Notes under the pieces: generated by a model | The model's database searches: none | Seen by the model: only the letters and a program-made list of their open reading frames with translations | What the model was told of the DNA's origin: nothing | Part shown: one piece after another, positions 24,499-33,073 of the stretch | How the letters are laid out: each line of letters starts with the position of its first letter | Position numbering within the stretch: position 1 is the first letter of the stretch | Source: Desulfovibrionales bacterium | GTDB lineage: Bacteria; Desulfobacterota; Desulfovibrionia; Desulfovibrionales; Desulfonatronaceae | DNA length: 33,073 bases | Assembly (NCBI GenBank): GCA_007693505.1 | Contig: REDL01000043.1 | Location: forward strand, 1 to 33,073 | Reading direction: 5' to 3' | Position numbers and translations under genes: made by a program

Positions 24499-25500
24499 CT
24501 AATCCTCCTGGAGCAGCGGGGAATGGGGTTGATGGGGTTCACGTCGGCCGCTTTGCTCGTCCCCTGAGTCCGAAGCGTCCTTGCGGGTCAGAAAAAGAAA
24601 CAGCAGGGCCATGCGGGTGGCCACCCCGGCGGAGACCTGATCCAGGATCAGACTGTTTTCCGCGTCCGCCAGGGCCGCGTCAATTTCCACTCCCCGGTTC
24701 ATGGGGCCGGGATGCATCACCAGCACCCCGGGGTTGGCCTTGTTCAGATGGCGGGCTCCCAGGCCATAGGTCCTGGCGTACTCCCGCAAATCGGGTAGAA
24801 GGCCGGCTTTTTGCCGTTCCAACTGTAAGCGCAGGCAGATGACCGCATCAACACCCCTGCACGCCTCGGTCAAGTTGGAAAAAATTTCCACCGGCCATTG
24901 CCGGACTCCAGAGGGTAATAATGTCCTTGGAGCGCAAAGACGGACCTGCGCCCCCAATGCCGTGAACAGCAGCACGTCGGAGCGAGCCACTCGGCTATGG
25001 GCAATGTCTCCGACAATCAGCACGGTCTTTCCGGCCATATCTTCCCCCCAAGCCTCGCTAAGGGAAAATCCATCCAGCAAAGCCTGTGTCGGGTGGGCAT
25101 GCCAGCCGTCCCCGGCATTAATCACCGAGCATGCCAGTCGCTGAGCCAGAAATTCACTGGCCCCGCTTTGTTGATGGCGCAGGACCAGGGCGTCCGGATG
25201 CATGGCCTGCAGGGTCAAAGCGGAATCCTTGAGGTTTTCGCCCTTGCGCAGACTGCTGGACGAGGCGGCCAGGGAGTAGGTGTCCGCGGAGAGTCGCTTT
25301 CCGGCAATGTCGAAGGAAGTCTTGGTTCGCGTGCTCGGTTCGACAAAAAAAAGGATAACGCTTTTGCCCTTGAGCGTGGGTACCTTTTTCACCGGTCGGG
25401 TGTTGATCTCGGCGAAGCGGCGAGCCATTTCAAAAACATGCAGAATTTCAGCCGATTTCAGCTGTGAAATACAGAGCAGATCCTTGTGGGGCCAAAGCAT
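24499..25500 (-). CDS. pyrB: Aspartate carbamoyltransferase catalytic chain
   Basis: A 333-residue enzyme for the second step of UMP synthesis. Carbamoyl-phosphate contacts are in [10 protein letters not shown] (residues 54-63, with lysine in place of the more usual arginine) and K86 in [15 protein letters not shown] (136-143) and [11 protein letters not shown] near the C-terminus are typical. A charged tail of about 25 residues extends past the family end. No pyrI regulatory gene is present. The frame is open upstream to 25701, but the conserved sequence begins at ATG 25500 (LWPHKDLL). This start lacks a ribosome site; TTG 25563 and GTG 25554 are alternatives. pyrC follows after three bases. 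Confidence 0.93.
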
Positions 25501-25585
25501 GGGTGCACCGTTGGTGAAGAGGTCTTTGGGGAAAACGGGAAAAACAGTCGGCACTGCAATCAATCGACGACATTGCCCTTCTCCT

Positions 25586-25605
25586 AGCCGAAAACAGCTT
25601 CGGCT
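25586..25605 (-). promoter_or_regulatory. Hairpin in the pyrB leader
   Basis: A perfect 7-bp stem AGCCGAA / TTCGGCT with a 6-base loop. On the minus strand it ends one base before a GGAG-type ribosome site (AGGAGAAGGG) followed by ATG at 25573. No T-run follows, so it is not a terminator by itself. A role in pyrB control is only a possibility. Confidence 0.35.
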
Positions 25606-25813
25606 TCCAGTACATTTTTCACGGCGCAAGACCTTGCCGGCCCCATGCCATCCCCTCGCCCCTGTCGATGTCCACGGAGCAGTCAAATTCTGTCCACGCA
25701 CAACCAGATATGGGCGAGGCCAGCAGAAGACCTTTCTGTACGTCCCAGACAGGGGAATTCAGCCGCCATGGCATAGAAGACATGCTGGCAACAAATTTGT
25801 CCAGACACGAGTG

Positions 25814-26115: not shown

Positions 26116-28689
26116 ATGTCTTCCTCACTTGACCAGTTAATCACCAAAAGCACCTCCACCGAACGCTCCACACCGGAAGAATTCCTTTTTCAGCAAAAAT
26201 ACCAGTTCTTCAAAAAACTGCTCCACAACAACAACCGGGCCCTGCAGCTGATCAACGCACTGGAGAACCTGCTTTACGACACCCGCCCCTTCACTTTCGA
26301 CGAAGTCCTCGACCAGTGCGAGGAACTGGTGGGAGTGGTTTACGAACTGGCCGAAGAACTCAATGCCATCTCCGGAGGTAAATATCCGCAACTCTTTGGA
26401 GCAGCTGAAAAAATCGGCATCCACATTTTGCGCGGCCTGACCAGGCAGCGCAAATTGGAGAAAACATGCCTCGTGTTGCCGCTGGTCCGACTGAGCCACG
26501 AAAATGCCGGCCAAGTGGGTGCCAAAGCAGCCAATTTGGGAGAAATTTCCAATCGCGTTGGACTACCCACCCCCAAAGGCTTTGCTGTTTCCGCCTATGC
26601 TTGTCACGATTTTTTCCGCTCCGCGGGTCTGTACAAGGCCATCCAGGGCGAAATGAAAGGCGTGGACATCCAGGACACCGCGCAGCTCACCCAGGCCTGC
26701 TCCACCGTCCAAAAACGAATTATTGCCGCCCCGCTGCCCGATGATTTGGAATGCCGTATCTTCTATGAGGCCAAGGAGCTGTTTCGGGAGTTTGGGTCAC
26801 GAACCCGAATTGCCGTTCGGAGCAGCGCCACGGGAGAAGATTCGGAATCCTCCTTCGCTGGTCAGCACTCCACGGTGCTCAACGTCACCCAAGACACCAT
26901 CCTCGATACCTATAAGGAAGTCGTGGCCAGCTTGTTCAACCCCCGTGCAGTCTTTTACCGCCGCAGCATCGGCTACCGGGATCAGGACGTCGTCATGTGC
27001 GTGCTCTGCCTGAACATGATCGACGCCCGTACAAGCGGGGTACTGTACACCCAGGACCCCAATGAGCCGGAAAGCCGGAAGTTGATCATCAGCGCGGCCT
27101 GGGGCCTGGGCGTGAGTGTGGTGGATGGCTCCATGCCCAACGATTTATGGCGGATAACTCCTGGAGAGGCTAAGCCGGAGTACAGCGGGGCGCGCAAAGC
27201 CCGACGGATTGCCATGAACCCCGAGGGAGGAATCCACGACGTGGCGGTGGAGGAACACCTTCAGGATCAACCCTGCCTGAATGGCGACGAGGTCCGCGCT
27301 TTGGCCAACTACGGTTGGACCCTGGAGAAGCACTACAAGCGCCCCCTGGATATTGAATGGGCCATGGACCAGTCCGGCAAGCTCTTCATTCTGCAGGCCC
27401 GCCCACTGAACTTGATGCTACCGGCGCAGGCCACCCAAGCCTTCACCGAAGAAGCAACCACGACCATGGAAGGGCATGACATCCTGCTGTGCGGCGGAGC
27501 TACGGCGTCTTCAGGCACGGCCTGCGGTCAGGCCATTGTCCTCAAGAGCGAGCAAGACCTGGCTGCCGTGCCCGAAGGAGCGATCCTGATCGCCCCACAG
27601 ACTTCCCCCAGCTATGTCCCCCTGATGGGCAAAATTCAGGGAATCATCACCGACGTGGGCAGTGTCACCGGCCACATGGCCTCCGTGGCCCGCGAGTTTG
27701 GCCTCCCGACCCTGGTGGGCACGGAGATCGCCACCAGCATCATTCCGCACGGCGAGGAAATCACTCTGGACGCCTCTCGTCGCACCGTTTATGCTGGACG
27801 GGTCATAAACCTGATCCAGGCCAAGCCGCGTACAAACCTCATGAAAGGCAGTCCGCTATTCCGCCTTGTCAAGGAAACATTGCAAAAAGTCGTCCCCCTG
27901 AATCTGATCGATCCCAAACACGTCGATTTTTGCCCCAAAGGCTGCCTGACCTTGCACGATGTGGTCCGCTTCACCCATGAAAAGGCCATGGCCGAGATGT
28001 TCCGCATCAACGAAGACATTCAAGAGGGCATCCACCTCGCGGTCAAATTGAAAACATCCCTGCCGCTGAACACCTATATTCTGGATCTTGACCGCGGATT
28101 CAAGACCTTCCCAGTAAACGGGATTGTGGAACTGGAGCAGATCGCCTCGCGGCCGTTCCTGGCTCTGTTCCGGGGCATGGAGCATCCCGGCGTGCAATGG
28201 AAGGGGCCGGTGGGAGATTATCCGTCCTGCTTCGCCATGGACCTCCCAGAGCCAATCCCGGACGACCCGAACCAGGACAGACCGTCTGGCGGACCGAACT
28301 ACGCCTTCATTTCCGACGACTATCTGCATTACAATGCCCGGCTGGGCTACCATTTCGTGACCATTGACACCTACTGCGGCCAACAGGTCAACGACAACTA
28401 CATCATCTTTTCCTTCAAAGGCGGAGCCGCGGACGTGTCCCGGCGCACCAGACGCGCGCTGATGATCGCGGCCATCCTCAAACGCCTGGGACTGCGGGTG
28501 GAACAGACAGGAGACTTTGTGCATGGGGAAATCAAGAAATACGATCATCCCCGAATGGAAGAGAAACTGGATTTTATCGGCCGACTTATGGGCTCGGTGC
28601 ATCTTCTGGACATGGTCCTCACCGACGACGCCCAGATCCCCTGGTACGTGGAGCAGTTTTTCAAGGGCAACTACTCCTTCAAGCCGTGA
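26116..28689 (+). CDS. PEP synthase/PPDK-like protein with variant C-terminal domain
   Basis: An 857-residue protein. Residues about 1-115 are a helical N-terminal extension. Residues about 125-430 form the PPDK ATP-grasp nucleotide-binding domain (VGAKAANLGEI, RSSATGEDSESSFAGQ, LDIEWAMD). Residues about 470-565 form the swivelling phosphohistidine domain with H520 in VGSVTGHMASVAREFG. In true PEP synthase or pyruvate phosphate dikinase a PEP/pyruvate-binding TIM barrel follows. Here residues about 570-857 are a different sequence (CPKGCLTLHDVVRFTHEKAM, then IIFSFKGGAADVSRRTRRA) with no barrel motifs. It may phosphorylate another acceptor, as rifampicin phosphotransferase does with the same modules, or be regulatory. 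ATG 26116 was chosen over 26071 because it starts the polar MSSSLDQL; both lack strong ribosome sites. Confidence 0.8.
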   Translation: MSSSLDQLITKSTSTERSTPEEFLFQQKYQFFKKLLHNNNRALQLINALENLLYDTRPFTFDEVLDQCEELVGVVYELAEELNAISGGKYPQLFGAAEKIGIHILRGLTRQRKLEKTCLVLPLVRLSHENAGQVGAKAANLGEISNRVGLPTPKGFAVSAYACHDFFRSAGLYKAIQGEMKGVDIQDTAQLTQACSTVQKRIIAAPLPDDLECRIFYEAKELFREFGSRTRIAVRSSATGEDSESSFAGQHSTVLNVTQDTILDTYKEVVASLFNPRAVFYRRSIGYRDQDVVMCVLCLNMIDARTSGVLYTQDPNEPESRKLIISAAWGLGVSVVDGSMPNDLWRITPGEAKPEYSGARKARRIAMNPEGGIHDVAVEEHLQDQPCLNGDEVRALANYGWTLEKHYKRPLDIEWAMDQSGKLFILQARPLNLMLPAQATQAFTEEATTTMEGHDILLCGGATASSGTACGQAIVLKSEQDLAAVPEGAILIAPQTSPSYVPLMGKIQGIITDVGSVTGHMASVAREFGLPTLVGTEIATSIIPHGEEITLDASRRTVYAGRVINLIQAKPRTNLMKGSPLFRLVKETLQKVVPLNLIDPKHVDFCPKGCLTLHDVVRFTHEKAMAEMFRINEDIQEGIHLAVKLKTSLPLNTYILDLDRGFKTFPVNGIVELEQIASRPFLALFRGMEHPGVQWKGPVGDYPSCFAMDLPEPIPDDPNQDRPSGGPNYAFISDDYLHYNARLGYHFVTIDTYCGQQVNDNYIIFSFKGGAADVSRRTRRALMIAAILKRLGLRVEQTGDFVHGEIKKYDHPRMEEKLDFIGRLMGSVHLLDMVLTDDAQIPWYVEQFFKGNYSFKP

Positions 28690-28711: not shown

Positions 28712-29623
28712 TCACGCTCGCAACGCGCCACGGAACTCATCCCAGGAGCTCACCCCCAGTTCATCCAGCAGGAGTGGCAATTCGGCCGCAATACGGAAGG
28801 CCATGTCCGGACGCAGGAAATTTGCCGTGCCGACCTGCACGGCCCAGGCTCCCACCAGAATGTACTCCAGGACATTCTCGGCCGAGGCGATGCCTCCCAA
28901 ACCGATGATCGGCAGGTCCACGGCCCTGCTGACCTGATAGACGCAGCGCAGGCCCACGGGCTTGATCGCCGGCCCGGACAGTCCGCCGATAACATTGGCC
29001 AGCCGAGGGCGTCGATTCCGCACGTCCACGGCCATGCCGGACAGCGTGTTGATCAGGGCCAGAATATCCGCCCCCCCGTCCGCCGCGGCCTTGGCAACAG
29101 CCGTGATGTCCGTGACGTTGGGCGAGAGCTTGACGATCACCGGCTTGGTTCCGGCCCGATCCTTGACCGCCCGGGTCACCCGGGCTGCTTGTCCCGGATC
29201 CTGACCAAAAAGTATCCCGCCGGCCTGGACATTGGGGCAGGAGATATTCACCTCCAGGGCCGCGACCCCTTCCTGTTCCGCCAGATATTCCGCAAGTCTG
29301 GCGAAATCCGTGACGTCACAGGCGTAGAGATTGGCGATCACCGGCACCTCGGCCCACGGCAGTAACGGCAGCTTTTCCTCAACAAAACGGTGCACGCCGA
29401 TATTCTGCAGACCGATGGCGTTGAGCATGCCGCAGGGCGTTTCCGCGACCCGGGGCATGGGATTGCCTTTGCGGGGCTCCCAGGACAACCCCTTGACTAC
29501 GATCCCCCCCAGCGCCGTCAGGTCGCCGTAAGCCGCGAATTCCAAGCCATACCCGAAGGTGCCGGATGCTGTCAGCACCGGATTCTTCAATCGCACCCCA
29601 GCCATTTCCACCGCGAGGTTCAT
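28712..29623 (-). CDS. pyrD: Dihydroorotate dehydrogenase, NAD-dependent type 1B catalytic subunit
   Basis: A 303-residue FMN flavoprotein that oxidises dihydroorotate to orotate in the cytoplasm. The catalytic base C129 in NISCPNV marks family 1 (family 2 has serine). Other motifs are LTASGTFGYG at 18-27, KLSPNVTDI, and IIGLGGIASAENVLEYI at the phosphate-binding end. Type 1B is inferred because pyrK, its electron-transfer partner, overlaps the start by four bases (ATGA). A GGGGG/GTGAGG stretch before ATG 29623 serves as ribosome site. It is convergent with the PEP-synthase-like gene, 22 bases away. Confidence 0.96.
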   Translation of the reverse strand: MNLAVEMAGVRLKNPVLTASGTFGYGLEFAAYGDLTALGGIVVKGLSWEPRKGNPMPRVAETPCGMLNAIGLQNIGVHRFVEEKLPLLPWAEVPVIANLYACDVTDFARLAEYLAEQEGVAALEVNISCPNVQAGGILFGQDPGQAARVTRAVKDRAGTKPVIVKLSPNVTDITAVAKAAADGGADILALINTLSGMAVDVRNRRPRLANVIGGLSGPAIKPVGLRCVYQVSRAVDLPIIGLGGIASAENVLEYILVGAWAVQVGTANFLRPDMAFRIAAELPLLLDELGVSSWDEFRGALRA

Positions 29624-30868: not shown

Positions 30869-33073
30869 TCACATGGGTGAGTCATAGTTTTTCCGGCCAA
30901 GAGAAGCAAATGCCCTCACGTCCGTCAACTCTGACTCCAGCTCCGCGGCAAGACGCTGAAACTCAAACTCCACTCGCGGCATCAACTCCCGACAGGCGGC
31001 AAGATCGCCCGCCTTGCCGGCCAGCTCCACCTGGCTGCTCTGATCGGCCAGTGTTCGTGCCGAGACGAGCGAAGCCATTCCCTTGAGGCTGTGGGCATGT
31101 TCCAGAATCGCAGTGATGTCCGCGTCGTCGATCACCTGGTTCAGTTTTTCCATGCATGCCCTGCCGTCTCCCAGAAATCCTCGCAGAATATTGTCGGCCA
31201 GCCTCTTTTTTCCACTCACCCGGCGCATGAAATCCGCCTTGTTGAAGACCGGAAGATCACGTTCTCCGAGTGCCGGATCATTTGTTTCCAGGGGCTTGTT
31301 GTCGACCTCTCGGGGACTGACTGTTGCCTGCTGCTCCTGCTTTTCCGGCTCCCCCTCGACATCCGGCGCGGCCAGATCCCGGGTCTCCACTGGCAGCCAT
31401 TTCTCCAACATTTCCGCCAATTGCGCCGGCTCCAGCGGCTTGGCCAGGTAGTCGTCCATTCCCGCCTCCAGGCACTGCTCCCGATAGCCCTGCATGGCGT
31501 GGGCGGTGAGGGCGATGATCGGCAGGCGGCGGGGAGAGGGCTGAGGGCTGAGACCTGAAACCTGAGGTTCAGAAATCCGGTCTCCGATGTCCGACGTCCG
31601 GTTGCTGGCATCCGAATCCTGACTTCTGACTTCTGACTTCTGACTTCTGATCCTCCGCGTCGCGGCCAGCCCGTCCATTACCGGCATCTGCACGTCCATG
31701 AGCACCAGGTCGTAGGGGATGGATTGGAGGGCCCGGACCGCCTCGGCGCCGTTGGCCACGGTGTCGGCGGACAGGCCGAGGTTGTCCAGCATGGCCAGGA
31801 TCACCTGCTGGTTGGTGGGATTGTCCTCGGCCAGAAGGACGCGCGCCTTGCGTGGGGTGAAGGTTTTCCGGGAACCGGGTTCCCGGACCAGCCGTCGAGC
31901 CATGATCTCCCTAGAGGAACTCTGACCATCCCTGGCCAGAACCATGGTCAGACAGTCGAACAGTTCTCCATGAAGCACGGGTTTGGTCAGGTAGGCAGAA
32001 AATCCGGCTTCCTGCAGGCGTTTCGCGTCGCCCTCGCGGCCCAGGGAGGTCAACATCACGGTGGGCAGGGGTTGCAGCGTGGGTTCTGAAGAAATGACCC
32101 GTCCCAGAGTTTCCCCATCCATGCCTGGCATTTGCATGTCCAGAACTGCCAGCCGAAAGGGGTCGCCTTGGGCCAGGGCAGCGTACAGCAGCTTCAGGGC
32201 CGTGGGGCCGTCGGGCGCCTCAGCCGGGCGCATTCCCCAGCCTTGGCAGCGGGCCAGCAGGATCTCCCGGTTCGTGGCGTTGTCGTCCACGATCAGGGTG
32301 TGGATCCCGTGCAGATCCGTGGGATCGGGCACGGGCGTCTCCACTGCCTCGCCCAGCCCCAGCCGGACCGTGAACCAGAAAGTGGAGCCCTGGCCCTCGA
32401 CGCTCTCCACCCCCACTTCCCCGCCCATCATCCCGGCCAGTTGCCTGGAAATGGCCAGCCCCAGCCCGGTGCCGCCGAACTTCCGGGTAATGGAGGCGTC
32501 CACCTGGGTGAAACTCTGGAACAAATCGTCCAGTTTGTCCGGGGGAATGCCGATGCCGGTGTCGCGGATGGTGAAAAGCAGAGTTACCGTCGAGATGCTG
32601 GAATGCTGGGATGCTGGAATGCTGGAATCTGAACCTTGCTGAACTGAGGGCATCTCCTGACGCTGAGCGTGGATGTTCGACTCCGGCGCACCAGACTGTC
32701 CACCTGTACCAGAAACATTGGGCGCGCAAACTTTCTCTGGAATCCCGGCATCCCAGCATTCCAGCATTCCAGCATTTCCTGCCGCCCTCTGCACCCGCAC
32801 CACCACCTCGCCCCGTTCCGTGAATTTCACCGCGTTGCCGGCCAAGTTGGTGAGGACCTGCCGGATGCGGCCGGGGTCGCCGATGAGGTTGTCCGGGACG
32901 TCCGGGTCCGCGGCGCAGATGAACTCCAAGCCTTTTTCCTCGGCCCTCAAGGCCGTCATGGCCGTGAAACTGTCCAGCATGGGCCGCAGGGCAAAGTTCA
33001 GGGATTCCAGGTCCAGCTTACCGGACTCGATCTTGGAGAAATCCAGGATATCGTTGATCAGGGACAGCAGGGC
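30869..33073 (-). CDS. Hybrid sensor histidine kinase with two receivers and HPt domain (5' end outside window)
   Basis: The last 734 codons of a multidomain kinase; the sensor part and the phosphorylated histidine of the kinase lie beyond the right edge. The frame opens with the end of the HisKA helix (INDILDFSKIESGKLDLE). Counting from the in-frame Met at 32980, the HATPase domain spans about 30-208 (N box NLAGNAVKFT, DTGIGIP, FGGTGLGLAIS). Receiver 1 is about 226-345 (D281), receiver 2 about 379-520 (D429 in LMDVQMPVMDG) and HPt about 580-680 (H630 in HAHSLKG). Two repeat-derived insertions interrupt it: residues 66-131 inside the ATPase domain and 446-484 inside receiver 2, both in frame. 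Catalytic residues outside the insertions are intact. A BarA/ArcB-like phosphorelay is likely; the signal is unknown. Confidence 0.93.
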   Translation of the reverse strand, partial: ALLSLINDILDFSKIESGKLDLESLNFALRPMLDSFTAMTALRAEEKGLEFICAADPDVPDNLIGDPGRIRQVLTNLAGNAVKFTERGEVVVRVQRAAGNAGMLECWDAGIPEKVCAPNVSGTGGQSGAPESNIHAQRQEMPSVQQGSDSSIPASQHSSISTVTLLFTIRDTGIGIPPDKLDDLFQSFTQVDASITRKFGGTGLGLAISRQLAGMMGGEVGVESVEGQGSTFWFTVRLGLGEAVETPVPDPTDLHGIHTLIVDDNATNREILLARCQGWGMRPAEAPDGPTALKLLYAALAQGDPFRLAVLDMQMPGMDGETLGRVISSEPTLQPLPTVMLTSLGREGDAKRLQEAGFSAYLTKPVLHGELFDCLTMVLARDGQSSSREIMARRLVREPGSRKTFTPRKARVLLAEDNPTNQQVILAMLDNLGLSADTVANGAEAVRALQSIPYDLVLMDVQMPVMDGLAATRRIRSQKSEVRSQDSDASNRTSDIGDRISEPQVSGLSPQPSPRRLPIIALTAHAMQGYREQCLEAGMDDYLAKPLEPAQLAEMLEKWLPVETRDLAAPDVEGEPEKQEQQATVSPREVDNKPLETNDPALGERDLPVFNKADFMRRVSGKKRLADNILRGFLGDGRACMEKLNQVIDDADITAILEHAHSLKGMASLVSARTLADQSSQVELAGKAGDLAACRELMPRVEFEFQRLAAELESELTDVRAFASLGRKNYDSPM
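31536..31654. repeat. Heptamer-periodic repeat array inside the kinase gene
   Basis: A 119-base stretch, exactly 17 units of 7 bases. Four consecutive units are identical (TGACTTC on the plus strand, 31620-31647). The rest vary in the first positions but keep the period, such as GAGGGCT twice at one end and CGATGTC, CGACGTC in the middle. It encodes a polar segment (starting RSQKSEVRSQ) inserted between helix 3 and strand 4 of receiver 2. The unit is not a multiple of three. Confidence 0.85.
32594..32629. repeat. Octamer tandem array, left arm of inverted pair
   Basis: Four copies of the 8-bp unit ATGCTGGA/G on the plus strand. The same unit recurs in opposite orientation at 32739-32777, so the two arms could form a long hairpin. 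It lies inside the HATPase-coding region of the kinase. Confidence 0.85.
32739..32777. repeat. Octamer tandem array, right arm of inverted pair
   Basis: Three to four copies of AGCATTCC/AGCATCCC on the plus strand, the reverse complement of the unit at 32594-32629. The arms enclose about 110 bases of nonrepetitive sequence, together forming a 184-base unit that adds about 65 residues to the kinase. Confidence 0.85.

Follow-up and report, generated by a model that had tools for sequence, protein, structure and literature searches.

A PEP-synthase-like protein without the PEP barrel in a Desulfovibrionales genome belongs to a multi-copy family with a possible regulatory role

What does a protein do when it has the ATP-grasp and phosphohistidine domains of PEP synthase but not the barrel in which PEP is made? 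This question is raised by a gene on contig REDL01000043.1 of a Desulfovibrionales bacterium, which was analysed as a stretch of 33,073 nucleotides (the window, positions 1 to 33,073). The gene and the parts of its product are as follows.

26116..28689, + strand: whole gene, PEP-synthase-like, 857 aa (open reading frame, start, stop, Pfam)
26116..26460, + strand: helical N-terminal domain, residues 1-115 (helices of the model; no Pfam match; aligned in most full-length relatives)
26464..27441, + strand: ATP-grasp domain, residues 117-442 (Pfam PPDK_N; conserved residues)
27481..27816, + strand: phosphohistidine swivel domain, residues 456-567 (Pfam PEP-utilizers at 486-555; PEP synthase homology up to residue 565)
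27673..27675, + strand: codon of H520, the expected phosphohistidine (conservation in alignments)
27826..28686, + strand: undescribed C-terminal domain, residues 571-857 (without a match to Pfam or the PEP synthase profile and without a close PDB or viral fold match)
27943..27981, + strand: C610-H614-D615-R618-H621-E622 motif, candidate acceptor or catalytic site (conservation)

Domain architecture and the missing barrel

The initial annotation regarded the first two catalytic modules as complete, and the Pfam matches and the conserved residues agree on this. PPDK_N was matched by residues 133-442 (E 2.8e-85) and the PEP-utilising mobile domain by residues 486-555 (E 5.8e-22), with no further Pfam match in the protein up to E 1. 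For conservation, 118 sequences were found and the 108 of at least 600 residues were used as rows of a family alignment, which includes a true PEP synthase (L049|2), a non-family sequence (L100|6), truncated rows such as L065|1 and the duplicates L008/L055 and L011/L111. K137, R235, E241, E414, Q427 and R429 of the ATP-grasp domain, which we take to be the residues with a catalytic role in PPDK_N, were each kept in 104-107 of these 108 rows. The position of H520 held a histidine in 107 of them, and was invariant in all 14 sequences of a separate alignment, A1, which includes the window protein. The full-length model (mean pLDDT 79.8) contains three long helices at residues 20-51, 61-85 and 92-109, in agreement with the additional helical N-terminal domain described at the outset. 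A sequence search against solved structures matched PEP synthase and rifampin phosphotransferase over the ATP-grasp and mobile domains, and the same two enzymes were the best PDB matches when the full model was searched with Foldseek.

The C-terminal part behaves differently from PEP synthase in every comparison. A profile comparison with five PEP synthases aligned 446 columns at 33% identity and the homology stopped at residue 565, while the C-terminal profile showed no similarity to five PEP synthases (probability 0.1). There was no Pfam match in this part of the window protein, and the other 12 members of the C-terminal alignment gave scattered matches, each in a single member, with a best E of 0.012. 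The model of the domain (mean pLDDT 75.9, rising to 80-96 in blocks of ten residues between model residues 161 and 260) is mostly well predicted at model residues 81-130 and 161-280 and poor in two loops, and it consists of antiparallel strands and helices without repeated beta-alpha units, that is, it is not a TIM barrel. The view that this part is unrelated to the PEP-utilising barrel, formed originally by eye, was thus borne out, and comparison of the predicted structure with known folds did not find a barrel with its catalytic cysteine. No close fold was obtained with Foldseek against the PDB (best E 0.072), with VIA-align against solved structures (best Z 6.0) or in a viral fold library (best E 9.4e-3). 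Since all these matches are weak, a known fold is still possible and a new fold is not proven. Within the domain C610, H614, D615, R618, H621 and E622 were each kept in 101-107 of the 108 rows, as firmly as the ATP-grasp residues.

The protein might also be a PEP synthase whose barrel has diverged beyond recognition, and one observation points that way: in the 20 matches listed by tblastn, the alignments with ppsA genes reach query residue 703-709. However, the profile comparison does not back this extension, the model is not a barrel, the GICG motif of PEP synthase is absent from the window translation, and a true PEP synthase with the motif GICGEAPS (L001), for which a search had been proposed, is present elsewhere in the same genome. 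A hidden barrel is therefore rejected on the profile comparisons and the non-barrel model, and we consider this explanation very improbable; by the barrel test, as modelled, the window protein is not a PEP synthase. The NCBIfam scores for PEP synthase lie below their cut-offs (346.2 against 739.75 bits and 362.2 against 598). In that tblastn search, of plasmids, no record covered 80% of the query, and among the 20 matches listed 13 were annotated as ppsA and 7 had no annotation. A PpsR-type regulator (PF03618) was not found in the genome, and PADLOC gave no match. The protein resembles PpsA in having the ATP-grasp and then the swivel domain, in the same order, and differs from it in lacking the PEP/pyruvate barrel and in carrying the extra helical N-terminus and the new C-terminal domain. 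Sequence, profile and model comparisons together back its description as a PEP-synthase-like enzyme without the PEP barrel.

A multi-copy family and its genomic neighbours

When the C-terminal 280 residues were used as query, a match was found in at least 107 of 297 genomes of the phylum, and the C-terminal profile gave matches in at least 86 of the 101 genomes sampled from the order, the largest number listed for one genome being 9. The twelve named loci belong to records of Desulfobacterota or Deltaproteobacteria, among them the isolate Desulfofustis glycolicus, and to one Nitrospirae MAG. The window protein carries the architecture of this family, the C-terminal domain with its C/H/D/R/H/E motif included, and its gene is thus one of a large family, present in many copies, whose members frequently occur together with genes for two-component systems and permeases. 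A search of the open-licence PMC literature for this architecture or for its link with receivers returned only PMC4001038 as directly relevant; the available parts of PMC10102598, PMC3333781, PMC9751629 and PMC4092371 held nothing decisive on the family.

The genome itself has six PPDK_N genes, namely the PEP synthase, the window gene, three paralogues on contigs C131, C28 and C60, and a sixth of another type. The C60 paralogue (L050:1997-4534) is degenerate: the gene is open and H520 is kept, but E414 has become His and only one of the six motif residues remains. Such a joint loss would be expected if both sites serve one reaction, though this is a single case. It sits in a cluster of receivers and kinases, and the same contig encodes a receiver domain and a sodium:sulfate symporter fused in one protein (L050:9826-11928). 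The C131 paralogue (L049:1871-7685) has about 210 extra C-terminal residues and lies directly upstream of the true PEP synthase on the same strand; a tail like this occurs in a subclade, and that of the C131 copy has no Pfam match. A link between the C131 paralogue and PEP synthase was rejected after comparison with two other genomes of the genus: in G321 the counterparts are on separate contigs, and in G300 a distance of 14 kb lies between them.

To describe the surroundings of the family genes we took regions for 70 of the 106 other genomes with a C-terminal match and added two loci of the genome itself, giving 72 family regions; L050 is absent from these counts, its degenerate C60 copy having gone unmatched by the C-terminal model. 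Controls were 27 regions, taken only from 27 of these genomes that have long contigs, and neighbours of family genes had served as seeds for the receiver and kinase models. Receivers occurred no more than 6 kb away in 40 of 72 family regions and in 4 of 27 controls (Fisher p 2.5e-4); for histidine kinases the counts were 37 and 4 (Fisher p 1.1e-3). These tests ignore relatedness, although related genomes are not independent, and 32 of the 72 family regions had no receiver at this distance. The density of receivers was 0.95 genes per 10 kb around family genes and 0.15 in controls, against a baseline in the genome itself of about 0.30 per 10 kb (119 matches in 3.94 Mb). Among 106 family genes 36 have a receiver of less than 200 residues directly next to them, against none of 485 control genes, counted over 86 regions of which some come from one genome and in which two family genes can share one receiver. 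The acidic pair, the phospho-Asp and the Lys were kept in all 31 distinct adjoining receivers. Several loci have two family genes around a single receiver, and no family gene fused to a receiver was seen in the family regions.

Furthermore, TauE permeases were present in 22 of 71 family regions and in none of the 27 controls, whereas SLC13, CBS, USP and DSP were not significant (7, 3, 6 and 5 of 71 against 0, 0, 1 and 0 of 27). In these counts L049-L051 were left out and the window was added; genes were called by a simple longest-ORF rule, by which the DSP gene on C28 was miscalled. A DSP match directly behind the C-terminal match on the same strand, with gaps of 18-180 bases, was seen in at least 21 of the 101 genomes of the order, this one included, the pairs being chosen by hand among the matches listed.

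The window copy, the pyrimidine genes and the nitrate cluster

The gene had been described as splitting the pyrimidine genes. Its neighbours, presumably pyrB and pyrD as named from the initial annotation and from recall rather than by a family search, are the following.

24499..25701, - strand: pyrB-like neighbour, divergent (ORF list, loci comparison)
28712..29623, - strand: pyrD-like neighbour, convergent (ORF list, loci comparison)

The position between the two genes stands, but the family gene lies on the opposite strand and is therefore not part of their operon. The pyrD side was identical in all six other genomes of the genus that have an orthologue (8 loci, of which two with identical scores seem to be second copies), and the seventh gave no family match among those listed. 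On the pyrB side the comparison covers L007 and L010, the flanks of the others being too short. Outside the genus no pyr gene was matched in 13 loci, two of which repeat a genome. A pyrimidine link is thus rejected on account of the opposite strand and of the restriction to the genus in the loci tested, and the pyrimidine neighbourhood is a genus-level matter of position.

In a family tree from which L049|2, L100|6, L065|1 and an extra reference copy were left out, the window copy falls in a fully supported clade of 14 genes, 13 of them distinct, mostly without signalling neighbours. Only L009, with kinases and a receiver nearby, and L059, with a kinase and a receiver-bearing gene, have both kinds of gene within five genes; apart from these, the window copy has a hybrid kinase at a distance of four genes, and a gene with a receiver lies near L010. 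L008/L055, L056 and L057 of this clade adjoin glgC-like genes. At the window copy itself the test for two-component genes was negative, as the flanks are the pyrB-like and pyrD-like genes and no receiver or histidine kinase adjoins; the hybrid kinase, with receiver stretches and Hpt, occupies window positions 30872-33073, close to the end of the contig, and nothing points to a link with the family gene. Any regulatory role of the window copy is thus argued from the family.

The experimental record closest to the family is a nitrate cluster of Desulfovibrio, DVU0251-DVU0245 and Dde_0597-0605, which according to the available part of PMC4001038 comprises genes for a TauE permease, a hypothetical protein, PtxB, a histidine kinase, a receiver, a protein with PPDK and mobile domains and a DSP phosphatase. 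The same part of that paper reports that isolated DvH transposon mutants in DVU0246 (the kinase-like gene), DVU0247 (the receiver), DVU0250 and DVU0251 (the permease) were resistant to nitrate and not to nitrite, with equal growth with and without 100 mM nitrate and no gain over the control in nitrite. In strain G20 mutants of all tabulated cluster genes, Dde_0597-0605, were fitter in nitrate, and a leaky thiosulfate transporter was suggested by the authors (PMC4001038, available part). Some values there fit less well: DVU0250 had a pooled fitness of -5.82, at odds with its isolated mutant, and nitrate inhibited the mutant of the phosphatase gene DVU0245 as it did the control (pooled fitness -6.04) whereas its G20 homologue was fitter (+2.08), which counts against a simple opposition of kinase and phosphatase.

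DVU0246 and Dde_0604 share the two annotated domains and, like many family genes, adjoin a receiver; a DSP phosphatase adjoins as well. Contig C28 of our genome shows the order of Dde_0601-0605, namely a Phosphonate-bd protein, a histidine kinase, a receiver about 0.9 kb from the family gene, the family gene, and a DSP-type phosphatase (L051:9579-10667) that overlaps it by 4 bases. By gene order DVU0246/Dde_0604 thus match the C28 paralogue, which is of another clade than the window gene. With the 2235 bp listed in the available part of PMC4001038, DVU0246 is shorter than family members, the difference from the window protein being about 113 codons; it is a putative member, judged by its domains and gene order. 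A search for TauE genes found none on C28, and the three TauE matches of the genome lie on C126, C127 and C65, contigs on which no family gene was found. Beside the nitrate-cluster-like locus C28 also carries a chaperonin-type (Cpn60) gene of 548 residues (L051:172-1818). In the comparative proteome table of a sulfur disproportionator, in the available part of PMC9751629, a response regulator (GF1_10760) and the universal stress proteins GF1_10730 and GF1_10800 have close locus tags, and the genes GF1_10730-GF1_10800 might be a cluster of this kind.

A possible regulatory phosphotransferase

In sulfate-reducing bacteria, genes of relatives often adjoin those of signalling proteins and ion transporters. 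This points to regulation more than to metabolism, and we therefore read the window protein as a dikinase-type phosphotransferase with a regulatory role, at a probability of about 0.5. Judging from the conserved residues, ATP would phosphorylate H520, the swivel domain would carry the phosphoryl group to an acceptor at the C-terminal domain, and C610, H614, D615, R618, H621 and E622 would form the putative acceptor site. In many family members the enzyme may have as partners a sensor histidine kinase and a stand-alone receiver, in some cases joined by an anion permease; such a set would couple sensing to transport, and the receiver would either switch the enzyme or be itself the acceptor. The window copy probably keeps the chemistry of the family. 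A bolder form of this reading, which we think unlikely as it stands, is that an ATP-grasp kinase derived from PEP synthase passes the phosphate of ATP via its swivelling histidine to stand-alone receivers or a receiver-controlled permease, opposed in some clusters by the DSP phosphatase, so that the many copies across sulfate reducers would be a further kind of phosphohistidine signalling enzyme. A barrel-less PPDK relative of Mycobacterium tuberculosis with ATP-binding and His domains, VadK, autophosphorylates its histidine and is reported to be a regulatory histidine kinase; it is about 50 kDa, and a C-terminal domain of the present kind is not mentioned in the available part of its description (PMC13400623).

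Against a regulatory role one may hold that the protein is a small-molecule dikinase, its C-terminal domain binding a metabolite while nearby sensors regulate only its expression or activity. This is possible, if somewhat doubtful. Rifampin phosphotransferase and HpeHI, in which ATP-grasp and swivel His likewise go with a replaced acceptor domain, act on small molecules, as far as the available parts of PMC4844700 and PMC12167813 describe them; the conserved C/H/D/R/H/E set resembles a substrate or metal site, and the glgC-like neighbours of some clade members would suit such an enzyme. Rifampin phosphotransferase is also among the best Foldseek matches of the full model, with five rows of 830-858 columns at 12-16% identity, TM 0.26-0.44 and rmsd 9-14. 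We read these long alignments as anchored by the ATP-grasp domain of the model, and a small-molecule enzyme would give similar ones. The rifampin-binding domain fold was not in the listed Foldseek or VIA-align matches, while the full-model matches align across both proteins; with the C-terminal domain alone, rifampin phosphotransferase was not among the best 50 PDB matches listed, and kinship is still possible. The NCBIfam score for this enzyme is 257.1 bits, below the cut-off of 999. In rifampin phosphotransferase the His domain is, we presume, placed last, so that the module order here is that of PEP synthase; of the likeness to these enzymes drawn in the initial annotation, the two shared modules with another acceptor hold and the domain order does not. 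Moreover, the neighbours differ among permeases, receivers, glgC-like and pyr genes without a common catabolic pathway, and up to nine matches per genome fit a signalling family better than a single substrate. A scaffold or pseudoenzyme, binding ATP and a partner receiver with no phosphotransfer, seems quite improbable: the C60 copy, open amid receivers and kinases in spite of its lost residues, would be of this kind, but nearly all other rows, the window copy included, keep the catalytic residues.

A dikinase with an undescribed acceptor domain in at least 86 of 101 sampled genomes of the order represents a large gap in how sulfate reducers are annotated, since only the first two domains of these proteins are recognised. 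Should DVU0246 be a member, a receiver and a permease would share a pathway with at least one branch of the family. If the family is regulatory, ATP-grasp phosphotransfer would be joined to two-component sensing and anion uptake, which could explain the nitrate resistance shared by such a gene, a receiver and a permease in Desulfovibrio and would bear on the control of oil-field souring.
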